IMG/VR virus record: IMGVR_UViG_3300049489_000477
Coordinates: 1 to 64,000 of that record
Strand: one strand, 5' to 3'
DNA length: 64,000 bases
Origin: a virus
How positions within the stretch are numbered: position 1 is the first letter of the stretch; every line of letters begins with the position of its first letter. Positions 13,099 through 59,453 of this stretch are shown here, in pieces. The position numbers and the translations under genes were made by a program. The notes under the pieces are model-generated. The model did not search any database and was not told the origin of the DNA. It saw only the letters and a list, made by a program, of their open reading frames with translations.

Positions 13099-13653
13099 AT
13101 GAGTTTTTACAAACATATCATTCACGATAGTACCAATAATCAAGATCATGAGTTTACAGATACAAATGCAAATGTATCCAACGAAACTCTTTTGACATTT
13201 GGCAATATCGAAAACTTGACGGTTTCGAATGTTGATATAAGCGCCGAAGTAGCACTGGAAGTTAACGAAGCAAAGCGTAAACTACAAGATGAAGCACTTT
13301 CTGTTGCATGGGATTTCATAACTCCATACTTTGACCAACCAGCATTTATTCAGATGGCGGATTGGAAGCATTCATTAGCGTCTGATCATGTCATACAACC
13401 ATATATAGCAGCGGTTGAAGCATGGAAAGCCGCCATTATGTTTGAATACTTAATGGTTAAAAAACCATCATTGTGGAACGGTTTGCCGTATGATCTAGAT
13501 TACAGTTTTGTTGGCTCGCCACCTTGTAAATTCACTGATATATTTTTACTAGCTAATCCTCAATTCCAACCCTATGCTGTGGGTTGGTCGGCTCCTGATA
13601 TTACTAATTATGCGCCTGGCAGTCGCCAGAACCCAAAGCCGATATTATTTTAA
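13099..13653 (+). CDS. Hypothetical protein, possible fibre-assembly partner
   Basis: 184 residues, starting one base after the large fibre ends. The N-terminal third is polar (HDSTNNQDHEF), the centre is helical with EVNEAKRKLQDEALSVAWDF and IAAVEAWKAAIMFEYL, and the C-terminus is aromatic and proline-rich. A small helical protein directly after a fibre gene is a common position for a fibre chaperone, but I do not recognise a family and this is inference. Its 3' end overlaps the convergent clpS-like gene by four bases, marking the end of the plus-strand fibre block. Confidence 0.55.
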   Translation: MSFYKHIIHDSTNNQDHEFTDTNANVSNETLLTFGNIENLTVSNVDISAEVALEVNEAKRKLQDEALSVAWDFITPYFDQPAFIQMADWKHSLASDHVIQPYIAAVEAWKAAIMFEYLMVKKPSLWNGLPYDLDYSFVGSPPCKFTDIFLLANPQFQPYAVGWSAPDITNYAPGSRQNPKPILF

Positions 13654-13967
13654 TCGGCAGGCTCAATAGAACACGGCAGCGGTACCTTCGGACCCTTCGT
13701 AGCATCGGGATCACAACCATAACCCTTGACCAGATCCTTGAGCATTTCGGCTCGTTCCTTGTGGGTCGTAACCACGATGCACTGACCTTCAAAATGAATT
13801 TTCTTGGTCAGTTCGAATGCCTCATCAAAATTCTTATTAAAGACCACCATAATCAGCTTCACAACCCACTCGACGGTATGAAAATCGGTATTGTGCAGCA
13901 GAACATGCCACTGTGGCATGTGTTGAACCTTGTCCTTCTTCTCAACTTCGGGTAGCGATGTGGTCAT
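13650..13967 (-). CDS. clpS: ClpS-like ATP-dependent Clp protease adaptor
   Basis: 105 residues. ClpS binds N-degron substrates and delivers them to the ClpA or ClpC unfoldase. The core matches the family: PQWHVLLHNTDFHTVEWVV (residues about 18-36), then a helix ending in KKIHFEGQCIVV with the conserved His and Gly, then a helix with KERAEML and a terminal PLPCSIEPAD. The usual Asn-Asp-Asp pocket reads Asn-Thr-Asp here, so one acidic residue is replaced. The N-terminal extension is short and charged, as in bacterial ClpS. An AAGGA site precedes the ATG. Length fits the family (about 100). Inference: the phage redirects host N-degron proteolysis; the pocket change could alter specificity. Confidence 0.85.
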   Translation of the reverse strand: MTTSLPEVEKKDKVQHMPQWHVLLHNTDFHTVEWVVKLIMVVFNKNFDEAFELTKKIHFEGQCIVVTTHKERAEMLKDLVKGYGCDPDATKGPKVPLPCSIEPAD

Positions 13968-46005: not shown

Positions 46006-46218
46006 GCCCTTTATTACTTGTTTTGCATTTACTGGTCTAAAAGGACAATTTGTGCAATTCGTCACATGCATGTTTTTTACAGCATAGGCTTCACAATTCA
46101 CATATTTTGGATCTTGATGATATGTATTGTTACATGTACAACCAGCATATCCCATTCCGACTCGATGTGGACATGGATATTTGCTTACTATTTCGTCGTA
46201 CTTTTCTTGAGGGGTCAT
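46003..46218 (-). CDS. Small cysteine-rich protein
   Basis: 71 residues with eight cysteines in ordered spacing: CPH, CTC, CEAY and CTNC with a His in the first and middle part. The pairs (C-x-C and C-x2-C) could bind zinc. No further domain is visible. It is coupled to the tube-fold gene through TAATG. Family not recognised. Confidence 0.55.
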   Translation of the reverse strand: MTPQEKYDEIVSKYPCPHRVGMGYAGCTCNNTYHQDPKYVNCEAYAVKNMHVTNCTNCPFRPVNAKQVIKG

Positions 46219-46877
46219 TATACTCTATTATACACGGTCTTGTATTCGTCAGCCATGACGAAACTGGTATAAATCCAGTTAACAGTTATAAAAGCTTTAT
46301 TTGGATCGGCAGAATCCATTTTTATAGAGCTAACCGACTGTGGGTGCATGCCTTCGAATTTTATTTCAACGGTCTTGTCACGATTGTTGTCCAATAGCAA
46401 TAGGTGACCATCGGTATAAAATGATCTGTTGTATCTATGAGCCGTATATTGCATGATGGCTTCTGGATTCGCTGCTGCAACCAACCAGTAATAGAAAAAT
46501 CTTGGTATAAAGAAGTTTTCATCGACTTGCAGCGTTGTGGTCAGAGCATCGAACTTCATTTTACCATTGGCAAACTTGACATCGGCTGTTGAGAACAAAC
46601 CAAGTGATGCTGCATCAATGGAGCAACCCGGTATATCAATAGACTTTAAAAATAATGCTAAATTTTTAACATCATTGTTCGCTTCGATGTATGCGTCCTT
46701 ATTATTGAACTTCGCATAATCGTCGGGTCTTGGACCAAGCGCATTTAAGCACTTGGTATTAAACTTTGACATTAAAAAACTTACAGGAATATTGTCTAGA
46801 ACGAATACGAAGTTGTTCGTATGAAATTCATTGAGTATGACTTCACTGTTATAGACTATGTTGCAGCAAGATGCCAT
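46218..46877 (-). CDS. Tail-tube-fold protein, baseplate or tube-associated
   Basis: 219 residues. The pattern NFVFVLDNIP, LKSIDIPGCSID, LTTTLQVDENFFI and a final FITVNWIYTSF matches the beta fold of tail tube and tube-initiator proteins (T4 gp19/gp54-like), with the IPG segment before a Leu-rich strand. It is clearly different from the two gp19-like proteins at 54414 and 55042. GAGG lies ten bases before the ATG. Baseplate placement is inferred from the neighbouring hub and wedge genes. Confidence 0.5.
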   Translation of the reverse strand: MASCCNIVYNSEVILNEFHTNNFVFVLDNIPVSFLMSKFNTKCLNALGPRPDDYAKFNNKDAYIEANNDVKNLALFLKSIDIPGCSIDAASLGLFSTADVKFANGKMKFDALTTTLQVDENFFIPRFFYYWLVAAANPEAIMQYTAHRYNRSFYTDGHLLLLDNNRDKTVEIKFEGMHPQSVSSIKMDSADPNKAFITVNWIYTSFVMADEYKTVYNRV

Positions 46878-50414: not shown

Positions 50415-53324
50415 TTATGCTATCCCTTTCGATAAGCTTTGTATGCCCAGCATGGAGTAATCTGGTGGGGTGAAATGTTGAACTGGCGGCTTTTCTTTCG
50501 CTGATGTCTTGTCTAATTTATTAGCTATATCATTCAAAACTTTTAAGACTGTAGAATTCTGGTCAGAAATAGTTGACTTCAAATCACCAACTTGGGCGGC
50601 TGTCTTGTCGGATGTTGGTGTCTTACTAGCATTATCAAGATTAGACTTCAATTGGTCAGCCGGATCTCTATATCCTGCTGGTGGTTCTATTGGCTTTCCA
50701 GTTTCAAGTGCTTTATCCATTCTACTGAATGCATCGTCGCTCTTATCAAGTGCTGTACTTGGTGATGCTGCCTTCTTCTCAGCTTCTACTTTTGGTTCAG
50801 CCGATTTCTTTGGCTTCATGAAGTTGTTGATATATTCTTCCATGGTTCCTAAACGCTGTGGAAGAAGTTGTGAGTAGAACAAGTCACCTTTTGCCAACAT
50901 ATCTGGGTCGAGATTGGATTTTGAATCTTCCTTACTCTCAACAATTCCTTTGATTTTACTCCATATTCCAGATACGCTTCTGAGTTTATCCAACGCAGAT
51001 TTGGCTTTATTTACATTTATTCTACCAGTTCGTGTATCGACCATCAAGTCGCCTGCTGCCGAGCTTAATATGGATGTTATCTCATTTCCTAATTCCGAAA
51101 TGGATCCTTGCGATTGGCTAGCCATCATAGCTGGTCCAATACTCATTTTACGCAAAGCTTGTGATACAGCCGCTGCCCGAGCAACCTCTTCTGATACTTG
51201 TTTTCCGTCCGGTAACGGTTTCATGAATTGATTAACTGATTGTTCGTAATCATCACCAGACATATTTTTTATACGATCAGTATTCTTTGATTCGACGCCA
51301 GATTTTTGTGAGTTAGCTTGTGCGGTGTCGAATAAAAGTCCACCAGCGGTTCCTATGTTCTTGCCCCACTGAACTGGAGCAGATAAAACATCAAGTGCAG
51401 TTTTTCCAGTGCCCGACCAGAATCCATCTTTATAATTTTCCTTAACATTTCCAAATCCCAAAGTATCAGCGACTCTTCCACCAACACCTTTTTGAGATAA
51501 GCGCATAGCTTCTTTTCCACGCGCATCTTTGTCAAAGGCGGTTGTATATGCACCATATGCTGCCATTGCTGGACCCATAAAGGCGGCGGCTTTACTCGCA
51601 ACACTTCCGACTTTACCAAGTCCCGCCATTAATCTAGGAGCCATCGATGTCATTTTTCCAACATTTGTGGCTACGCTAGAACCGACATTACCAATAGCCG
51701 AAGCCGCTCTACCAGCGACCCCAGCAGCCTTTGAACCAATACTACGGAAAGCCGAGCCGACTCGACCAGTAGCGCCGGAAACTGCTCTTCCCATTGATGC
51801 TTTGGCACCGGAAACTGCACGCCTGGCTGCTGATACTGCTCTACCGGCTTTTGATCCACGCATTGCAAGTTTAGCTTTTCTAAATGCTCTGCTTAAGCGA
51901 CCACCCTTTCGTGCGCCAGCGGCTCCTTTACCACCACGGCGTAGGTCCAATAGGTCTAATAATGAATCAAACAGACCTCCACCACCTTCGCCGCCTTCGC
52001 CAAGTAATCCACTTCCTTTCAATTTAGCAACAATTTCGTCAACCAAATTGTACTTTACATATTTTTCAAGTCTATCGACCTTTTCATCAACATCCTCTGT
52101 GCTTTCGGCAAGTCCGTCCGCTTCGTTATCTATTCCATCGACTTTTCTAACCAATCTACGCATAGCAGCGTCATTATCATCATCAATATCCGCTTCGTTA
52201 CGCATATCGTTTGAAATAAGTTCAATAGCTTTCTCTGTATCTTTCTTAATTTGTTCACCAAGTGTCCTTGGCATAGGTTCATTATCCATGGATGGGTCGA
52301 ATCCTGGCAACGGAGTTTCGCCAGATTGTTTTTTGTCTTTCATGTACCTTGGTTGAATCTTTGCACCCACATATCCAAATGCTTTCTGAAGACCACCACC
52401 AAGCGATTGTTCGATACTGGCTTGTGTCGATGGTGCTGAATGATCTTGAGCAAAATATCCGAATGCGTCACTAATAAGTGACCTTGCTGCCGTCATGCCT
52501 CCAGAAAACTTCTCCTTGAGAATTTTAAGCTTCGATTCTTGTTCAGCTATGATCTTATCTTTTTCTTCGTCTAGTTTTCGTAACTTCTTTTCCTTTTCGA
52601 TTTCTGATGGTGTTTTATTATTGTTATCATCTAGCTCTTTGTTGAGGCTCTTTGCTAAACTCTTTACTTCCGTATCAGATAATTTTTCGCCCTTGTTTAT
52701 TTTCGCCATCAATTTTTCAACGGTAGAATTGACGGCTTTAAATTGGTTATCTATCTTATTGGTTAATTCTTTGTGATTTTCTTTGGCTGTTTTCTGAAAA
52801 TCTTGAAATGTTGGTAGCAACTTTTCTTCTTGCTTAGGTTCTACATGTGACTTTGGGGCAATCAACTTCGACATGCCGCCAAACATGCTCTGAATCGACT
52901 TACCAAGTGATTGCTCAATACTTGCTTGTGTTGCTGGGGCTGAATGGTCTTTAGCAAAATATCCAAATGCATCGCTTGCGACTGACCTGGCTCCTGTTAC
53001 GCCACCCGAAAGATACTTTTCACCAAATACCTTGAATTCACCTTTTATTTTGGCTAATGTTTCTTCTTTATCTTTATCTCTTTGCTTTTTAAATTCATTA
53101 AGTATTTCGTCTGATAGTTGCTGTGGTGTCTTCTGTTTGCTTTGAGCTTCGAATTTTTCTTTTAATGCTTTGATGGTATTTTCACTACCGCCAAATTTTG
53201 TCATCAATTCAGCCATTGATGCAGAAAGAATATGCATCTCATGCCGCATGTCCATTAATGCTTGCTTCATGAGGTCTTGGTCAGACACCCCTATTTGATC
53301 AGCAATAATGCGACTATCAGCCAT
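50415..53324 (-). CDS. Tape measure protein
   Basis: 969 residues. The N-terminal third is coiled coil. Residues 107-149 and 275-317 are a near-identical internal repeat (SDAFGYFAxDHSAPxTQASIEQSL). A Gly/Arg/Ala/Lys-rich segment (about 465-580) is followed by a hydrophobic segment around 590-625 (KAAAFMGPAMAAYGAYTTAF), typical of the DNA-ejection and membrane part of tape measures. The C-terminus is Lys/Pro/Asp-rich. The gene lies directly after the chaperone frameshift pair, in the conserved tube-chaperone-tape order. At about 1.5 A per residue, known for tape measures, the tail would be about 145 nm. Confidence 0.82.
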   Translation of the reverse strand: MADSRIIADQIGVSDQDLMKQALMDMRHEMHILSASMAELMTKFGGSENTIKALKEKFEAQSKQKTPQQLSDEILNEFKKQRDKDKEETLAKIKGEFKVFGEKYLSGGVTGARSVASDAFGYFAKDHSAPATQASIEQSLGKSIQSMFGGMSKLIAPKSHVEPKQEEKLLPTFQDFQKTAKENHKELTNKIDNQFKAVNSTVEKLMAKINKGEKLSDTEVKSLAKSLNKELDDNNNKTPSEIEKEKKLRKLDEEKDKIIAEQESKLKILKEKFSGGMTAARSLISDAFGYFAQDHSAPSTQASIEQSLGGGLQKAFGYVGAKIQPRYMKDKKQSGETPLPGFDPSMDNEPMPRTLGEQIKKDTEKAIELISNDMRNEADIDDDNDAAMRRLVRKVDGIDNEADGLAESTEDVDEKVDRLEKYVKYNLVDEIVAKLKGSGLLGEGGEGGGGLFDSLLDLLDLRRGGKGAAGARKGGRLSRAFRKAKLAMRGSKAGRAVSAARRAVSGAKASMGRAVSGATGRVGSAFRSIGSKAAGVAGRAASAIGNVGSSVATNVGKMTSMAPRLMAGLGKVGSVASKAAAFMGPAMAAYGAYTTAFDKDARGKEAMRLSQKGVGGRVADTLGFGNVKENYKDGFWSGTGKTALDVLSAPVQWGKNIGTAGGLLFDTAQANSQKSGVESKNTDRIKNMSGDDYEQSVNQFMKPLPDGKQVSEEVARAAAVSQALRKMSIGPAMMASQSQGSISELGNEITSILSSAAGDLMVDTRTGRINVNKAKSALDKLRSVSGIWSKIKGIVESKEDSKSNLDPDMLAKGDLFYSQLLPQRLGTMEEYINNFMKPKKSAEPKVEAEKKAASPSTALDKSDDAFSRMDKALETGKPIEPPAGYRDPADQLKSNLDNASKTPTSDKTAAQVGDLKSTISDQNSTVLKVLNDIANKLDKTSAKEKPPVQHFTPPDYSMLGIQSLSKGIA
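52374..53006 (-). repeat. Internal duplication in tape measure (two copies with spacer)
   Basis: Copies at 52374-52502 and 52878-53006, each coding 43 residues beginning with GGxTxARS and including SDAFGYFA and DHSAP. The spacer between them is about 125 residues and unrelated. Confidence 0.8.
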
Positions 53325-53326
53325 AA

Positions 53327-53584
53327 TTAACCTCGAATTGCCTTATAAAGATTGGTTATACCTTCAATGATAAGTTCATTCATTTGTTCTTTTTCTCTTG
53401 TTTCATCGTTTCTTTTCTCTTCGTATGTGTTTTTAAAAGTAAACGAATGGAAAATAAACTCAAAAAACTCTAGTTCTTCCGCCTGATGTATATTTATACA
53501 ACCTTCGGAATTTTTTATAAGCTCAAGAATATCACGAAGCAATTCGAGGTAATATTCTCGTTCAATTGTTATTTTATAAAAAAA
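53327..53584 (-). CDS. Tail assembly chaperone -1 frame extension (GT-like)
   Basis: The frame has no credible start of its own; a TTG at 53542 lacks a ribosome binding site. It is open from 53584, inside the 3' end of the zero-frame chaperone gene. After a -1 shift at T TTT TTT the product would read FF-YKITIEREYYLELLRDILELIK and continue for 83 residues, making a 342-residue fusion. The sequence is helical and charged, with a coiled C-terminal part. It ends two bases before the tape measure, as in lambda gpG-T pairs. Confidence 0.7.
   Translation of the reverse strand, partial: FFYKITIEREYYLELLRDILELIKNSEGCINIHQAEELEFFEFIFHSFTFKNTYEEKRNDETREKEQMNELIIEGITNLYKAIRG
53540..53584 (-). promoter_or_regulatory. 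Programmed -1 frameshift signal
   Basis: Slippery heptamer T TTT TTT (53584-53578) in the zero frame GAT TTT TTT, followed after nine bases by a stem-loop: arms CAATT and CGAG pairing with CTCG and AATTG (53568-53540) with a three-base bulge. The zero-frame stop TAA lies in the spacer. Confidence 0.65.
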
Positions 53585-54354
53585 TCAATAAACTTGACCT
53601 CATCTTTACTCTGTTGTTGACAATGAACGCATGTAAAGTCCATTTCTAAAAATGTTCCAAAACCTTTGATCTGCGCGAAGTAGTTTTTTATGCGTTCAAA
53701 ATCATCCAGGGTCAACGATTCAGCAAATTCAACTCTTTCTTTTATAGATGGTGTTACTTCTTTCTTCACATCATCAATAGATACCGTTATTGCTTTGATT
53801 GTAGATGCCAAGAAAATAAAATTCTTCTCTACCTCACTCGTTACCTTGGAATCCTTAATATATTTCTCTATTTCAAGGTTGTCGCCACGCGACAGCAAGC
53901 CGACTGCGAAGGAAACATCACCGTTTTTAGAAACAATAACATTCGTTTGCTCTGGTTCTTTAAAAAACTTGGTCGTGATGTTTGTAAATGGGAATTTTAC
54001 ATCAACATTTGTCTTACCGCATGCTGAACATACATGGTCTATGGAGGCGTAGTCAAATTCCGTTGAATTTTTTCGTATTTCAGTCAAAATCTGCTGCCGT
54101 TCTTGATCTACTAGCTTTTTAGCATCAATGGGCACTTCATCATCGGTTGCTGCGTATTTTTCAATAAGTTTGTCTGCAAAGGCATCAATAGCCGTCTCAT
54201 CAGAACCTTCCAGCACCTTTAAAAATTCCTTTTTGTCTCGTATTTTTATAGGGCGAAGCAAAATTTCTTTCCCGCTATAACATAATGTGACGGGCTTTGG
54301 TGCCGCTTTTGTTAAATACGCTTTTTTAATATCAGACATATTAATATCAGACAT
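53569..54354 (-). CDS. Tail assembly chaperone / gp26-like protein
   Basis: 261 residues. The pattern (RPIKIRDKKEFLKVL at about 34-48, a helical middle, HVCSACGKTN around 107-116, and FTCVHCQQQ near the end) matches gp26-type T4_baseplate proteins with two C-x2-C pairs that may bind zinc. The first pair is in the middle and the second near the C-terminus. It is located between the second tail tube gene and the tape measure, where lambda has gene G. The -1 slippery sequence is at its 3' end. AGGGG lies nine bases before the ATG and a TATAAT box upstream. A second in-frame ATG lies five codons downstream. Confidence 0.72.
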   Translation of the reverse strand: MSDINMSDIKKAYLTKAAPKPVTLCYSGKEILLRPIKIRDKKEFLKVLEGSDETAIDAFADKLIEKYAATDDEVPIDAKKLVDQERQQILTEIRKNSTEFDYASIDHVCSACGKTNVDVKFPFTNITTKFFKEPEQTNVIVSKNGDVSFAVGLLSRGDNLEIEKYIKDSKVTSEVEKNFIFLASTIKAITVSIDDVKKEVTPSIKERVEFAESLTLDDFERIKNYFAQIKGFGTFLEMDFTCVHCQQQSKDEVKFIDFFIK

Positions 54355-54413: not shown

Positions 54414-55001
54414 TTAGTCGGTAGGTCTGTTGTTTGTTTGTTTTGGCTCTTGTTTATTTGACGGACTAAACAACTCTATTGTGTAGAAATCATATGTAAA
54501 ATTAACATTAAAATGAGCCAAATCATTAGATGCGTTGTTTAATTCGTACCCACCAACCTTGCGTGGGAAGAAACCATTCATGGTATATTTGCAAACTGGT
54601 TGACCAACTCTATTCAATTGATATACATGCGCAATTCTCTTGTATGACTTTTGCGTGGCAGCAGCTTTGCGGTTAAAATCCCATGCCAAAGATGACCATG
54701 CCAGAAAAGTTGATCGCAAAATATACGAATCGTCTGACCAAAATGTAACCGCCCAATCATCATCAAATCGTATACCCTCAACTGCCTTTATACTGAGATG
54801 TTGAAACTCTATATTTTTTGATTTTAACTCGAAATTTGGTAAAGTTAGTGTTTGTGCAAATGCTGTTAATGTCGTTTTATCATCGGGTACGATACCAATG
54901 GCTGGTATTTCGATAGCAAACATGTAAGAACGAGCAAAATCGCCGCCCAAAGCGGCGATTTTTTCTCTAAAACCTACAAGATTGATGTTGTGTATAGTCA
55001 T
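54414..55001 (-). CDS. Tail tube protein, second paralogue, probably leaderless
   Basis: 195 residues. It has the same pattern as its neighbour at 55042: NLVGFREKIAAL with GGDFARSYMFAIEIP, then LTLPNFELKSKNIEFQHLSIKAV, SYKRIAHVYQLNRVGQPVCKY, NGFFPRKVGG and HFNVNFTYDFYTIEL, and ends in a NRPTD tail close to the NRPIDA of the other. This is the gp19-like fold. The two proteins differ across most of the sequence. It has no Shine-Dalgarno but an extended -10 with six-base spacing, so the second tube protein could be expressed differently from the first. Confidence 0.82.
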   Translation of the reverse strand: MTIHNINLVGFREKIAALGGDFARSYMFAIEIPAIGIVPDDKTTLTAFAQTLTLPNFELKSKNIEFQHLSIKAVEGIRFDDDWAVTFWSDDSYILRSTFLAWSSLAWDFNRKAAATQKSYKRIAHVYQLNRVGQPVCKYTMNGFFPRKVGGYELNNASNDLAHFNVNFTYDFYTIELFSPSNKQEPKQTNNRPTD

Positions 55002-55041: not shown

Positions 55042-55707
55042 TTATGCGTCTATTGGTCTGTTCGCTACCTGTGCTGGCTCGTCTGTGTTAACTTCATTAC
55101 TTGGAATGTTACGGTTAGGTGCAGATACAACCGCTCTTTCACTGTTATCACTTCCAATGTTGACTGCCTTGGCGTTAGCACCAGTAGCTACGGTATAGAA
55201 GTCATATGTAAATGTTACATTAAACTTCGCTGGTTCTACATCGTCGTGTCCCAACTTTGGTGATTCAACGATACTTGGGAACAAACCATAGAAGGCATAA
55301 ACCAATACTGGTGATCCAAGACGATCAAGCTGGCTTACATATATCTTATCCTTCTTATAGCTGGTAAGAGCAGCCCCTTCCATCGTTCCTGGGTCATGAA
55401 TATACGAGGTCCAGCGAAGGAGGTTTCCGCGAAGAGCCTGCGCTTCATCAGCCAAGCACTCGACTTGCCATGTTTGGTCAAATTCGACTACCGATGCGAC
55501 TTGCATCTTCATGCCTTGGAAACCGATTGGACTCGTCTTGACCTTGTACGCAGGAAGAGTTATTGATCGAACCATCATTGATAATGTGTTCGTTCCAGCA
55601 TCATCAAGCCACTGTGGCATGTCGATTTTGAACATGAATGACCTGGACCAATCTCCAAGTACAGTTCTAAATCCTACCAAGTTCTGGTTAAAAGCTTTGA
55701 TTGCCAT
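55042..55707 (-). CDS. 19: Tail tube protein, gp19-like
   Basis: 221 residues, a little longer than T4 gp19 (163). The core has NLVGFRTVLGDWSRSFMFKIDMP, ITLPAYKVKTSPIGFQGMKM, VEFDQTWQVECLAD, KIYVSQLDRLGSPVLVYAFYG, and KFNVTFTYDFYTV, the strand order of gp19-type tube proteins. A disordered, charged C-terminal tail ends NRPIDA. GGAG lies 11 bases before the ATG, and it follows the sheath gene by 22 bases, the usual order. It is the more canonical of the two and is probably the main tube protein. Confidence 0.85.
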   Translation of the reverse strand: MAIKAFNQNLVGFRTVLGDWSRSFMFKIDMPQWLDDAGTNTLSMMVRSITLPAYKVKTSPIGFQGMKMQVASVVEFDQTWQVECLADEAQALRGNLLRWTSYIHDPGTMEGAALTSYKKDKIYVSQLDRLGSPVLVYAFYGLFPSIVESPKLGHDDVEPAKFNVTFTYDFYTVATGANAKAVNIGSDNSERAVVSAPNRNIPSNEVNTDEPAQVANRPIDA

Positions 55708-55729: not shown

Positions 55730-57742
55730 TTAGCCTCTGCCGACCAACTCTTGGAAATTGACTCCAGTAGCTACAGCGGTGAATATGAGCTTGATGAACT
55801 CTATTACACGAACTGGCTTTACTAATATTTCAGCGACGAATTCGTTACGGTCGATGACTTCTGGTGTGTTGTTTCTTTCGTCAGCAACAACCAAGTAGTC
55901 ATAGACGCCGCGCTTGGCTTTGATTTCAGCAAGGAAGTTGTTGACACTGTTGCTGAAGCGTGAGCGTGTAACTTCATCATTCAACTCGAATATGTAGTAG
56001 CGAGCAAGTCTCTCGATTGAACGCTCCAAGTAGAGGAACAAACGACGGACATTGACGCGATCAAATGCCGATGGCTTGGCTTGAAGTGTCTTTTGACCCC
56101 AGATAACGATACCTTGACCAAGGAACTTCACAATAGGATTGATACGGTTCTGGTAAAGGATATCGCGTTGTGCCTGTGTAGGATTGACGATGGTATCAAT
56201 GACATTATCAATGATGCCACGGTTCAAGCCGGCAGGTGCCCACCACTGTGCGTATGCGAAGTCGGTACGGGCATATGTTGCGCCGACGAAGCCGGTTGCT
56301 GGGATCCAGCGTTCCTTCTCGCCATAGTTATCAAATATCTTGAAGTAGTTTCCGTAGATAGCGGAATAGCTACTGTTGATATTCAAGTCACCAGCAACAT
56401 AGTTAGCCATCTTGGTGTAAACTTGATCAACGACCTTCTTGGTTGTTGGGTTTACCATGATGGTTTCTGGTACATTCAATATTGCGAAGCAATCCTTACG
56501 GATGTTCTTGGCAAGATTGTCCATTTCTCTCTTGACATTATCCGAGTAATCGGCATCCAAGAGAAGGTCTACTTGCTGAGATTCCTTGTTTCCAAAGAAC
56601 TTCTGCCATGCACCGAAGATTTCACCTTCGAGTTGACCAAGACCAGGATCTGCGTCAAGAACACCATCGTGTGATGCATCCGAGTAACCAGCCAATCCGT
56701 CTGCTCCCATAAGTGGGGTACGACCAATAGACCATGTTACTTCGATAGCATCTGAGGATTCTTCACTTGTACCGGTAAATACATTAAGGTACTTGTTGTT
56801 TCCGTTGATAACGGATGGACCAAACATGTTGTTACCGTATCCGTCTCTCTGTTCTGGATTGGTCGAAACCATATATACATCGTCTAATGTATCATTTTCG
56901 TTGAACACATAGAAGAGGTATGTATCGTAGAAGTATACTGGATTGCCTGACATGTCGTATGATACGACTGTTGGTTCTGGACCATATTCTGGTGAGGTAT
57001 AGTTGCCCAACATGACTGAATCGACAGCCCAGCCAGCCGATGTGTTGCTTGTATCAACTTGACCGCCGCCAGTGCGTGGTTGTGCGACAATGACATCATC
57101 ACGGAGAGATGGAGCGCGGCTCAAAAGAGCATCGCCCGATGTTCCCGACCAATACATAGCAATAATTGCTTGACGATCTGAATCAAGAACGGCTTGTGCC
57201 AAGTCGCGCTTGAGGTTTTGAAGTGTCTTGTATTCGAAATTCGAAACAACGGAGAATGAAATGTTTTCGTAGAATGGACCAGCGCCAACTGCGTACACAT
57301 GGAACAACTTTTCAGCACCAGATACGTCAAGAGGTCCACCAGTTGTTGTAGCGGTTCCGACAGAATCATACACAAGAGGATATTGCTCAACCTTCATTGG
57401 TTCTGGTTGTGCAGTCAAATCACCCTGTGGTTGGGTTGATGTTGGTGGTGTGAAACCAACGACTACACCAGCCGCATTACGAGTAGAATCTTCAATACGA
57501 ACAACCTTGAGGGCGCTCGAAGCCTCGGAGAACTTCAGCGCAGTCCAAGCGAACTTGTAGTTAACATCATCTGGCTTACCAAAAACTTCTATATAGTTAC
57601 TTGGGCTTGTGATGTCTACAATTTGATTAACTGGACCTTTAGTTGAGTGAACAACTATCGCACCCGTTGACGAGGTGACCGTTTCAATACGGAGTGTTCC
57701 GTCGCGCTCGATTACTTCTACGCCTGGAGAAAGAAGTGTCAT
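55730..57742 (-). CDS. 18: Tail sheath protein, gp18-like
   Basis: 670 residues, matching T4 gp18 (659). It begins LLSPGVEVIERDGTLRIETV, the standard sheath start, with GAIVVHSTKGPVNQIV and an EVFGKP segment following. The C-terminal domain with YVAGDLNINSSYSAIYGNYFKI, WIPATGFVGATYARTDF, and QNRINPIVKFLGQGIVIWGQKTL, then NVRRLFLYLERSIERLARYYIFELND, contains the conserved sheath motifs (G..G..A..D and a QGI.IWGQKTL motif). The last residues (VNFQELVGRG) are typical of gp18. AGGAG and a late promoter precede it. Confidence 0.92.
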   Translation of the reverse strand: MTLLSPGVEVIERDGTLRIETVTSSTGAIVVHSTKGPVNQIVDITSPSNYIEVFGKPDDVNYKFAWTALKFSEASSALKVVRIEDSTRNAAGVVVGFTPPTSTQPQGDLTAQPEPMKVEQYPLVYDSVGTATTTGGPLDVSGAEKLFHVYAVGAGPFYENISFSVVSNFEYKTLQNLKRDLAQAVLDSDRQAIIAMYWSGTSGDALLSRAPSLRDDVIVAQPRTGGGQVDTSNTSAGWAVDSVMLGNYTSPEYGPEPTVVSYDMSGNPVYFYDTYLFYVFNENDTLDDVYMVSTNPEQRDGYGNNMFGPSVINGNNKYLNVFTGTSEESSDAIEVTWSIGRTPLMGADGLAGYSDASHDGVLDADPGLGQLEGEIFGAWQKFFGNKESQQVDLLLDADYSDNVKREMDNLAKNIRKDCFAILNVPETIMVNPTTKKVVDQVYTKMANYVAGDLNINSSYSAIYGNYFKIFDNYGEKERWIPATGFVGATYARTDFAYAQWWAPAGLNRGIIDNVIDTIVNPTQAQRDILYQNRINPIVKFLGQGIVIWGQKTLQAKPSAFDRVNVRRLFLYLERSIERLARYYIFELNDEVTRSRFSNSVNNFLAEIKAKRGVYDYLVVADERNNTPEVIDRNEFVAEILVKPVRVIEFIKLIFTAVATGVNFQELVGRG

Positions 57743-57842: not shown

Positions 57843-59453
57843 TCAGATTCTCCCTAGCTGCTTTTTGAAAATATCCTTGTCTGACAGTGGGCGCACATAT
57901 TTATTGAAGCTCTTAAGAATATCTTCATCTGTTTCGGCGTTTGGATTGTTTTCTTTAGTTTGTGCCGCCTTGCCAGCATAATACATGAAATCGTCTTGAT
58001 AGTAGCGGGATCGTAAGGCATATGATACCCAATATGCCGATGAAATCGTATCGTCGTGTAGATTTCGACCCACTCTTGCTTTAAAAACTCCTGGGGTTAC
58101 TTCTTCAAAATAGGTGAGTTCTGTGTACATATCACGCGACCGGATGCGTATCTTTCCACATTCCACATCATCTTTAAAAAAGTTTAAAGCCATAGGCTTG
58201 GTTTTTACATTGGCATTTATGCCATGTTCTGCTCGTTCATAGTCAAAAAAGACATTTTCATACTCTTTATCGTGATAAAGAACCTTACACACGACTTCAC
58301 CAGTTGTGTTGTTTTCCACAATGACCATTGGGTTATTGAACATAGGGGTTAACTTGAAAAGAACATCAATAAAATCAAATAACACAATATCATTTTTCCT
58401 GAATATGCCAACTTGCTCAAAACACTGAGTTGTATTGAACTCGGTAACATCAAAAATGTTTATTACAGAGAAGTCTGTGTTGTTTCCAGCACCTTTAGAT
58501 ACATCGACACCAAATGCATACAATCTTCCCTTCTGTGGTTGCTTCCACATATGAAGACCTTCTTCGGTGATATATGCTGCGTCACTTACTTGTTCAGCGA
58601 GACGCAAAAGAGCCTCACCAGAAATAAGTGTATTTGTTGATCCAGTGAAACTACATTCATGTTCTTGATTAAAACGAACCTTACCAAGTATTGCCAATGT
58701 TGTATCGTGCCACGCTTGATCACGATCAGGATGTCTATCCCACTTGACCTTTTTAGAGACGAATGGGTTGGTTATACCATTGATGACTTTTCCAGCGCCA
58801 GTGAATATTTCATAGAACTTACCAGTTGATCCGTTTGGTGTAGATACCATGATCATACGACCACCTGTGCTGATGGTCGGGAATACGGATGTGAAGAAGT
58901 TTTCTGCTATTTCTTGTGGCACATGCGCGAACTCATCGAGAGCGAGAAGAGATAACGATTCACCACGGAACGAATCTTCAGCGGTTGTTCCGCCCATGAT
59001 GGTCGATCCGTTATCAAAACCTATTACTGTCTGGTCCCACTTTTCTGCGCCTGGCTTCAAGAAATCCGGCATTTCAAGATATGCCGTCTTAATATCTTTC
59101 ATAAGACTCTTTGCCGACGCTTCTTTGTTCGACAAAATACCAACGGTCTTATCGACATCAAACATGGCAAGCCACAACATATAAATGGACAGACATGTTG
59201 ACTTACCAAGCTGACGCCCGAAATTTAGAACGATGAATCTGTGTTCAACGAATGCAAGTAATGTCTCAATTTGGTAATCGAATAATTTGATGATGTGCTT
59301 GCCGCGTTTTTCTTCGATAACCGTAAAATACTTTTCGGCAAAGTAAATAATATCTTTGGAGCATTTCTTTATTTCGTTGATCTGCTCTGTCGTAAACTCT
59401 GTATCAGAATTTGGACGCTTAAGACCTTTTACTTTATCATAACTTACGGGCAT
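57843..59453 (-). CDS. 17: Terminase large subunit, gp17-like
   Basis: 536 residues, shorter than T4 gp17 (610). The ATPase has Walker A GRQLGKST (79-86) and Walker B LSLLALDEFAHV with Asp173 and Glu174, then a C-motif MVSTPNGSTG. The nuclease domain has GVDVSKGAGNNTDFSV (metal-binding Asp), VENNTTG and a late acidic HDDTISSAYW. It packages the genome into the prohead. The start overlaps the gp16-like stop as TAATG. All key catalytic residues are present. Confidence 0.93.
   Translation of the reverse strand: MPVSYDKVKGLKRPNSDTEFTTEQINEIKKCSKDIIYFAEKYFTVIEEKRGKHIIKLFDYQIETLLAFVEHRFIVLNFGRQLGKSTCLSIYMLWLAMFDVDKTVGILSNKEASAKSLMKDIKTAYLEMPDFLKPGAEKWDQTVIGFDNGSTIMGGTTAEDSFRGESLSLLALDEFAHVPQEIAENFFTSVFPTISTGGRMIMVSTPNGSTGKFYEIFTGAGKVINGITNPFVSKKVKWDRHPDRDQAWHDTTLAILGKVRFNQEHECSFTGSTNTLISGEALLRLAEQVSDAAYITEEGLHMWKQPQKGRLYAFGVDVSKGAGNNTDFSVINIFDVTEFNTTQCFEQVGIFRKNDIVLFDFIDVLFKLTPMFNNPMVIVENNTTGEVVCKVLYHDKEYENVFFDYERAEHGINANVKTKPMALNFFKDDVECGKIRIRSRDMYTELTYFEEVTPGVFKARVGRNLHDDTISSAYWVSYALRSRYYQDDFMYYAGKAAQTKENNPNAETDEDILKSFNKYVRPLSDKDIFKKQLGRI

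Follow-up and report, generated by a model that had tools for sequence, protein, structure and literature searches.

A putative -1 frameshift fuses the two parts of the tail assembly chaperone in a divergent, uncultivated T4-like phage

The window analysed here, a stretch of 64,000 nucleotides, comes from an IMG/VR virus record of 116.5 kb. It carries a tail module that includes a probable tail assembly chaperone (TAC) locus, and the features of this locus and of its surroundings are the following.

57843-59453, minus strand: terminase large subunit, T4-like (phrog_5989, E=1.6e-57)
55730-57742, minus strand: tail sheath protein (phrog_23, E=4.6e-107)
55042-55707, minus strand: second tail tube-like protein (phrog_45, E=2e-31)
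54414-55001, minus strand: tail tube protein, gp19-like (phrog_45, E=1.3e-22)
53569-54354, minus strand: TAC-N, short form of the tail assembly chaperone, gp26-like, 261 aa (PF12322 and phrog_150)
53598-53601, minus strand: SD-like GAGG, candidate frameshift stimulator, 13 nt 5' of the heptamer
53578-53584, minus strand: slippery heptamer T TTT TTT, read GAT TTT TTT in the zero frame
53569-53571, minus strand: zero-frame stop TAA, separated from the heptamer by two sense codons
53327-53584, minus strand: TAC-C, the -1 frame extension, 85 residues counted from FF, plus stop
53524-53560, minus strand: predicted hairpin, RNA fold of -12.0 kcal/mol, with a spacer of 17 nt 3' of the heptamer
50415-53324, minus strand: probable tape measure protein, 969 aa, directly after the TAC, with homologues of varying length

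The TAC locus is located between the phrog_45 tube genes, upstream, and the probable tape measure gene, downstream, whose open reading frame starts 2 nt past the stop of the -1 frame. The 969-aa protein had no match in the Pfam and PHROG family searches, and its name is a probable one, based on its position and on the pattern of its homologues: these comprise 902 aa in L019 and 1118 aa in L021, two related contigs, with conserved ends and a variable middle. The terminase large subunit is 33% identical to T4-type terminases. The tail module contains three distinct phrog_45 tail tube-like proteins (46218-46877, 54414-55001 and 55042-55707, minus strand), which corresponds to a duplication of the tube protein.

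The 261-aa TAC-N protein matches the Pfam family PF12322 'T4_baseplate' (E=2.7e-18, 66.9 bits for a cut-off of 24.5) and phrog_150 'baseplate hub' (E=2.1e-14). Its AlphaFold2 model has a pLDDT of 85, and the two best PDB matches of this model are both the tail assembly chaperone of HK97 (2ob9; E 0.055 and 0.083, prob 0.97 and 0.93), which ranks first of 350,542 chains with a TM-score by target of 0.44-0.51. As the E value is 0.055, this modelled fold kinship is suggestive, not decisive. T4-type 'baseplate hub' proteins are among the best viral structure matches of the same model. The model of the C-domain reaches a pLDDT of 60, which is too low for a fold search. The functional logic, the gene order and a weak fold similarity are thus common to the window TAC and to lambda gpG/gpGT and HK97 gp13, whereas no sequence similarity to these systems was seen and the heptamer is different, the slippery heptamer of lambda being G GGA AAG.

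The 3' end of the 261-aa frame reads GAT TTT TTT ATA AAA TAA. The -1 frame is closed by a stop at 53587 and is open from 53584 to its own stop at 53327, so that joining TAC-N and TAC-C gives a fusion of 342 aa (TAC-NC). The first-pass annotation of this DNA had proposed precisely these elements, and the zero-frame gene, the phase of the heptamer, the opening of the -1 frame at 53584 and the 342-residue product were all verified. Such a site is rare in the window: among 20,260 in-frame codons, T TTT TTT occurs once and T TTT TTN six times, and the TAC-N site is the only T TTT TTN located within 10 codons of a gene end. Two of the 57 genes of the window have, among their final 10 codons, a slippery heptamer that is followed by a long open -1 frame. 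The second of these candidates, C CCA AAG at 13099-13653, was rejected because its -1 frame runs into a convergent ClpS-like gene that occupies this region. That gene (13650-13967, minus strand; PF02617, E=1.2e-16) encodes a ClpS, the Clp protease adaptor; as an auxiliary gene of a T4-like phage it is unusual. It is adjoined by a gene for a protein with a phosphoribosyltransferase domain (PF00156, 14021-14515).

We compared the window with its three nearest IMG/VR relatives, L018 (the same contig as L002), L019 and L021. The useful relatives were obtained with the sheath protein as query of IMG/VR; the gp26-like protein and the -1 frame alone each gave a single contig. Acinetobacter phage nACB2, which was matched through its terminase, has no syntenic TAC locus. 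Protein identity to the window is 82% for L018, 52% for L019 and about 48% for L021. The comparison of homologues suggested with the original proposal was in its favour: T TTT TTT is identical in the three relatives, and the heptamer together with the ATA AAN stop spacing is present at the same place in all four clade members. A -1 frame of more than 80 codons is kept in L018, L019 and L021, with identities to the window domain of 86%, 54% and 53%, respectively. Most substitutions in this region affect the third position of the -1 codons, and the region compared contains no stop in the -1 frame, against 6-15 codon positions with stops in the other two frames. The dN/dS of the -1 frame is 0.125 between the window and L018 and 0.20 between the window and L019. 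Judged from these substitution patterns, the -1 frame is under purifying selection and evolves as a protein (dN/dS 0.13-0.20).

A coding -1 frame could also be a separate small gene. Its translation would begin at a start of its own, the TTG at 53542 or some non-canonical codon, or ribosomes would re-initiate once past the gp26 stop. This TTG is indeed present and is the earliest ATG, GTG or TTG in the -1 frame of the window, and two distant T4-like phages, Cygsa01 and D495, have no heptamer and carry an overlapping TAATG instead. However, the anti-SD pairing upstream of the TTG is weak (-3.0 kcal/mol, versus -7.6 and -7.1 for the starts of gp26 and of the tape measure, respectively), and a start at this codon would lose the conserved FFYK and Y12 positions. 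Furthermore, starts are not conserved in the clade: a TTG at +29 is found in the window and in L018, a GTG at -1 in L019, and in L021 no start codon appears until 116 nt past the stop. A separate gene would also leave the conservation of T TTT TTT in four of four members unexplained. We therefore reject a gene with its own start for the window clade, in agreement with the earlier remark that the -1 frame has no convincing start, and consider a separate gene in any form highly unlikely.

Outside the clade, a heptamer precedes the gp26 stop in most of the isolates examined, which belong to several host groups. T TTT TTC is found in the cyanophages ACG-2014d, S-SCSM2R, S-SM1, P-SSM7 and S-H34, as well as in Vibrio nt-1, Stenotrophomonas Yut3, Aeromonas AS-szw and the marine virus AG-345-D19. 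The gp26 homologue of Pseudoalteromonas XG4 ends with T TTT TTA, and that of phage C48C1 with a run of eight T (T TTT TTT T). Pelagibacter Mosig differs in that its zero frame continues beyond the equivalent FF site. T TTT TTC stands one codon before the gp26 stop in all 80 of the 80 cyanophage-type IMG/VR loci, although among the other Phe codons of those genes TTT outnumbers TTC (659 to 234). In Pseudomonas phage Cygsa01 (L013, 1700-1911) and Vibrio phage D495 (L014, 1560-1765), TAC-N and the -1 frame are connected by the overlapping TAATG, which looks as though stop-start coupling had taken over from frameshifting.

These relatives also bear on the origin of the long form. Slippage of the RNA polymerase on the T run could produce the same protein, and the seven T of the clade and the eight T of cyanophage C48C1 would suit it. 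Yet nearly all relatives have T TTT TTC, with six T only (80/80 cyanophage-type loci), and this heptamer keeps the tandem re-pairing of tRNA-Phe in the exact zero-frame phase, which is a need of the ribosome and not of the polymerase. Slippage by the polymerase is thus extremely improbable. The probability that a real or assembly-generated indel split one gene, and that the frameshift is an artefact or a pseudogene, is close to nil: homopolymer runs are prone to indel errors, but four samples yielded independent contigs, 48-82% identical in protein, that share the seven T and the stop position, and the equivalent site is present in isolates of many genera.

Across the junction, the window fusion is collinear with the cyanophage-type fusions (hhalign prob 98.4%, E 6.5e-15). 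Taken by itself, the C-domain of the window has no significant match to phrog_634, to which the -1 domains of cyanophages belong, or to those cyanophage domains, and its hhalign prob is 2.6%; it aligns with the cyanophage fusions only within the full fusion. We assign the window TAC to the T4-like TAC family, of which it shows every testable feature except recognition of the C-domain alone. The likeness to the T4-like TAC-N/TAC-NC of Vladimirov et al. 2022, as far as this work is represented in later papers, comprises the PF12322/phrog_150 family, the place before the tape measure, the poly-T site, and a short and a long product. The differences are that the usual T4-like TAC has T TTT TTC and one codon before the stop, whereas the window has T TTT TTT and two codons, that the C-domain of the window is too divergent for phrog_634, and that the lineage is a new, uncultivated one. 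A conserved -1 poly-T site also ends TAC-N in the Vandenendeviridae/Andersonviridae, as in Pseudomonas phage Adele, with the difference that the motif is an invariant GTTTTT and that these phages belong to another group (PMC12846349).

In T4, gp26 and gp51 are encoded by separate genes, as the first-pass annotation stated. However, T4 gp51 is a fused form of full length and is paralogous to gp26. The counterpart of the short form is T4 gp26, whereas T4 gp51 (249 aa) covers both domains: its residues 1-201 match PF12322 and its residues 147-246 match phrog_634, and it aligns with the fusions across the frameshift junction (prob 96%, E 1.6e-9). T4 therefore encodes the long form as a second gene. 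No heptamer was found at the 3' end of T4 gene 26. T4 has two copies of PF12322, whereas each of the 15 other records searched has one; the window genome, whose record may be incomplete, has a single copy combined with the frameshift. In T4, a short gene and a pre-fused paralogue have thus taken the place of slippage.

This arrangement has a history in the literature. A 2016 review presented T4 as an exception to the conserved G-T frameshift (PMC5009743). The explanation came with Vladimirov, Gautam & Davidson 2022 (Virology 566:9-15): the PRFect paper (PMC10885494) credits them with T4-like phages that have one short and one longer fused gene, and in the Adele paper (PMC12846349) they are the source given for poly-T slippery sites within T4-like TAC-N genes. 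The link between T4-type and lambda-type arrangements that the original proposal drew from the frameshift is thus real, and, going by these two citing papers, it was already published, as were the T4-like TAC frameshift and the T4 two-gene variant. The window locus is a new and well-supported example of a device already described. With it, the tail-chaperone frameshift reaches a T4-like lineage that is deeply divergent and uncultivated, and the T4 alignments confirm from an independent angle that the long-cited exception has both products.

Taken together, the central proposal, a -1 frameshift that fuses the tail-chaperone parts before the tape measure, is well supported by the conservation of the heptamer and of the -1 frame at 47-82% identity, and further by coding selection on the -1 frame, by the cyanophage-wide site and by the match to the HK97 chaperone fold. 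Both refuting conditions set with the proposal failed to overturn it, the heptamer being conserved among relatives and no start codon being conserved. We consider it very likely that a programmed -1 ribosomal slip at T TTT TTT yields a short and a long tail-assembly chaperone. The locus is best explained as the TAC of a divergent T4-like myophage. Most ribosomes would synthesize the 261-aa TAC-N and terminate at the TAA at 53571-53569, while a minority would move one base back on T TTT TTT (53584-53578), both tRNA-Phe re-pairing on TTT TTT, and read the -1 frame to 53327, producing the 342-aa TAC-NC. The latter would possess an extra helical domain at its C-terminus, encoded only in the -1 frame. 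If the division of labour is that of lambda gpG/gpGT, the tape measure protein would be coated by numerous copies of TAC-N and a small number of TAC-NC, whose C-terminal domain would recruit tail-tube subunits. Points that count against the model are the lack of a conserved 3' RNA structure, the absence of a significant match for the C-domain by itself, the E value of the PDB fold hit and the fact that in E. coli slippage is usually weaker on U UUU UUU than on A AAA AAG.

The bulged stem-loop previously noticed nine bases 3' of the heptamer exists, with a stability of only -5.3 kcal/mol, and it is not kept in L019 and L021. The minimum-free-energy fold of this stretch is another hairpin, the one at -12.0 kcal/mol (z about -1.4), which is present in L018 and missing from L019 and L021. 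No RNA structure located 5-9 nt past the heptamer is conserved across the clade, the structure being different or absent in L019 and L021. Given its low stability and its absence from two of the relatives, the 3' stem-loop was rejected as a conserved stimulator.

The GAGG located 13 nt before the heptamer is found at an identical position in the four clade members. In the clade, anti-SD pairing of the stretch 6-22 nt before the heptamer amounts to -5.8 to -7.0 kcal/mol, the background over the genes being about -1.6 to -2.0; in the cyanophage loci, the mean is -7.0 against -1.5. The upstream GAGG is a better stimulator candidate than the 3' stem-loop; it is a lead, not a result, because the SD-like element of cyanophages is partly dictated by a conserved Glu-Gly and because the clade comprises only four sequences. 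As a tentative and somewhat doubtful generalization, the T4-like TAC frameshift could be stimulated upstream, by GAGG or the Glu-Gly codons 9-13 nt 5' of the site, and not by a 3' RNA structure, with U UUU UUU as the addition of this clade.

These observations have consequences for annotation. The -1 frame of cyanophages carries the annotation 'gp51, baseplate hub assembly catalyst' and is often mis-started or omitted; what is listed in many of these phages as a 'separate' gp51 is the -1 half of a single fused protein, for which the records often give an arbitrary start or lack a CDS. In the public records L003, L005, L008 and L016, this 'gp51' half is annotated as a stub of 31-35 aa or is absent, and these cases look like annotation errors due to an unrecognised frameshift. 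Besides correct annotation, the junction has a practical value, as it provides two diagnostic peptides, FIDFFYK for the fusion and FIDFFIK for the zero frame.
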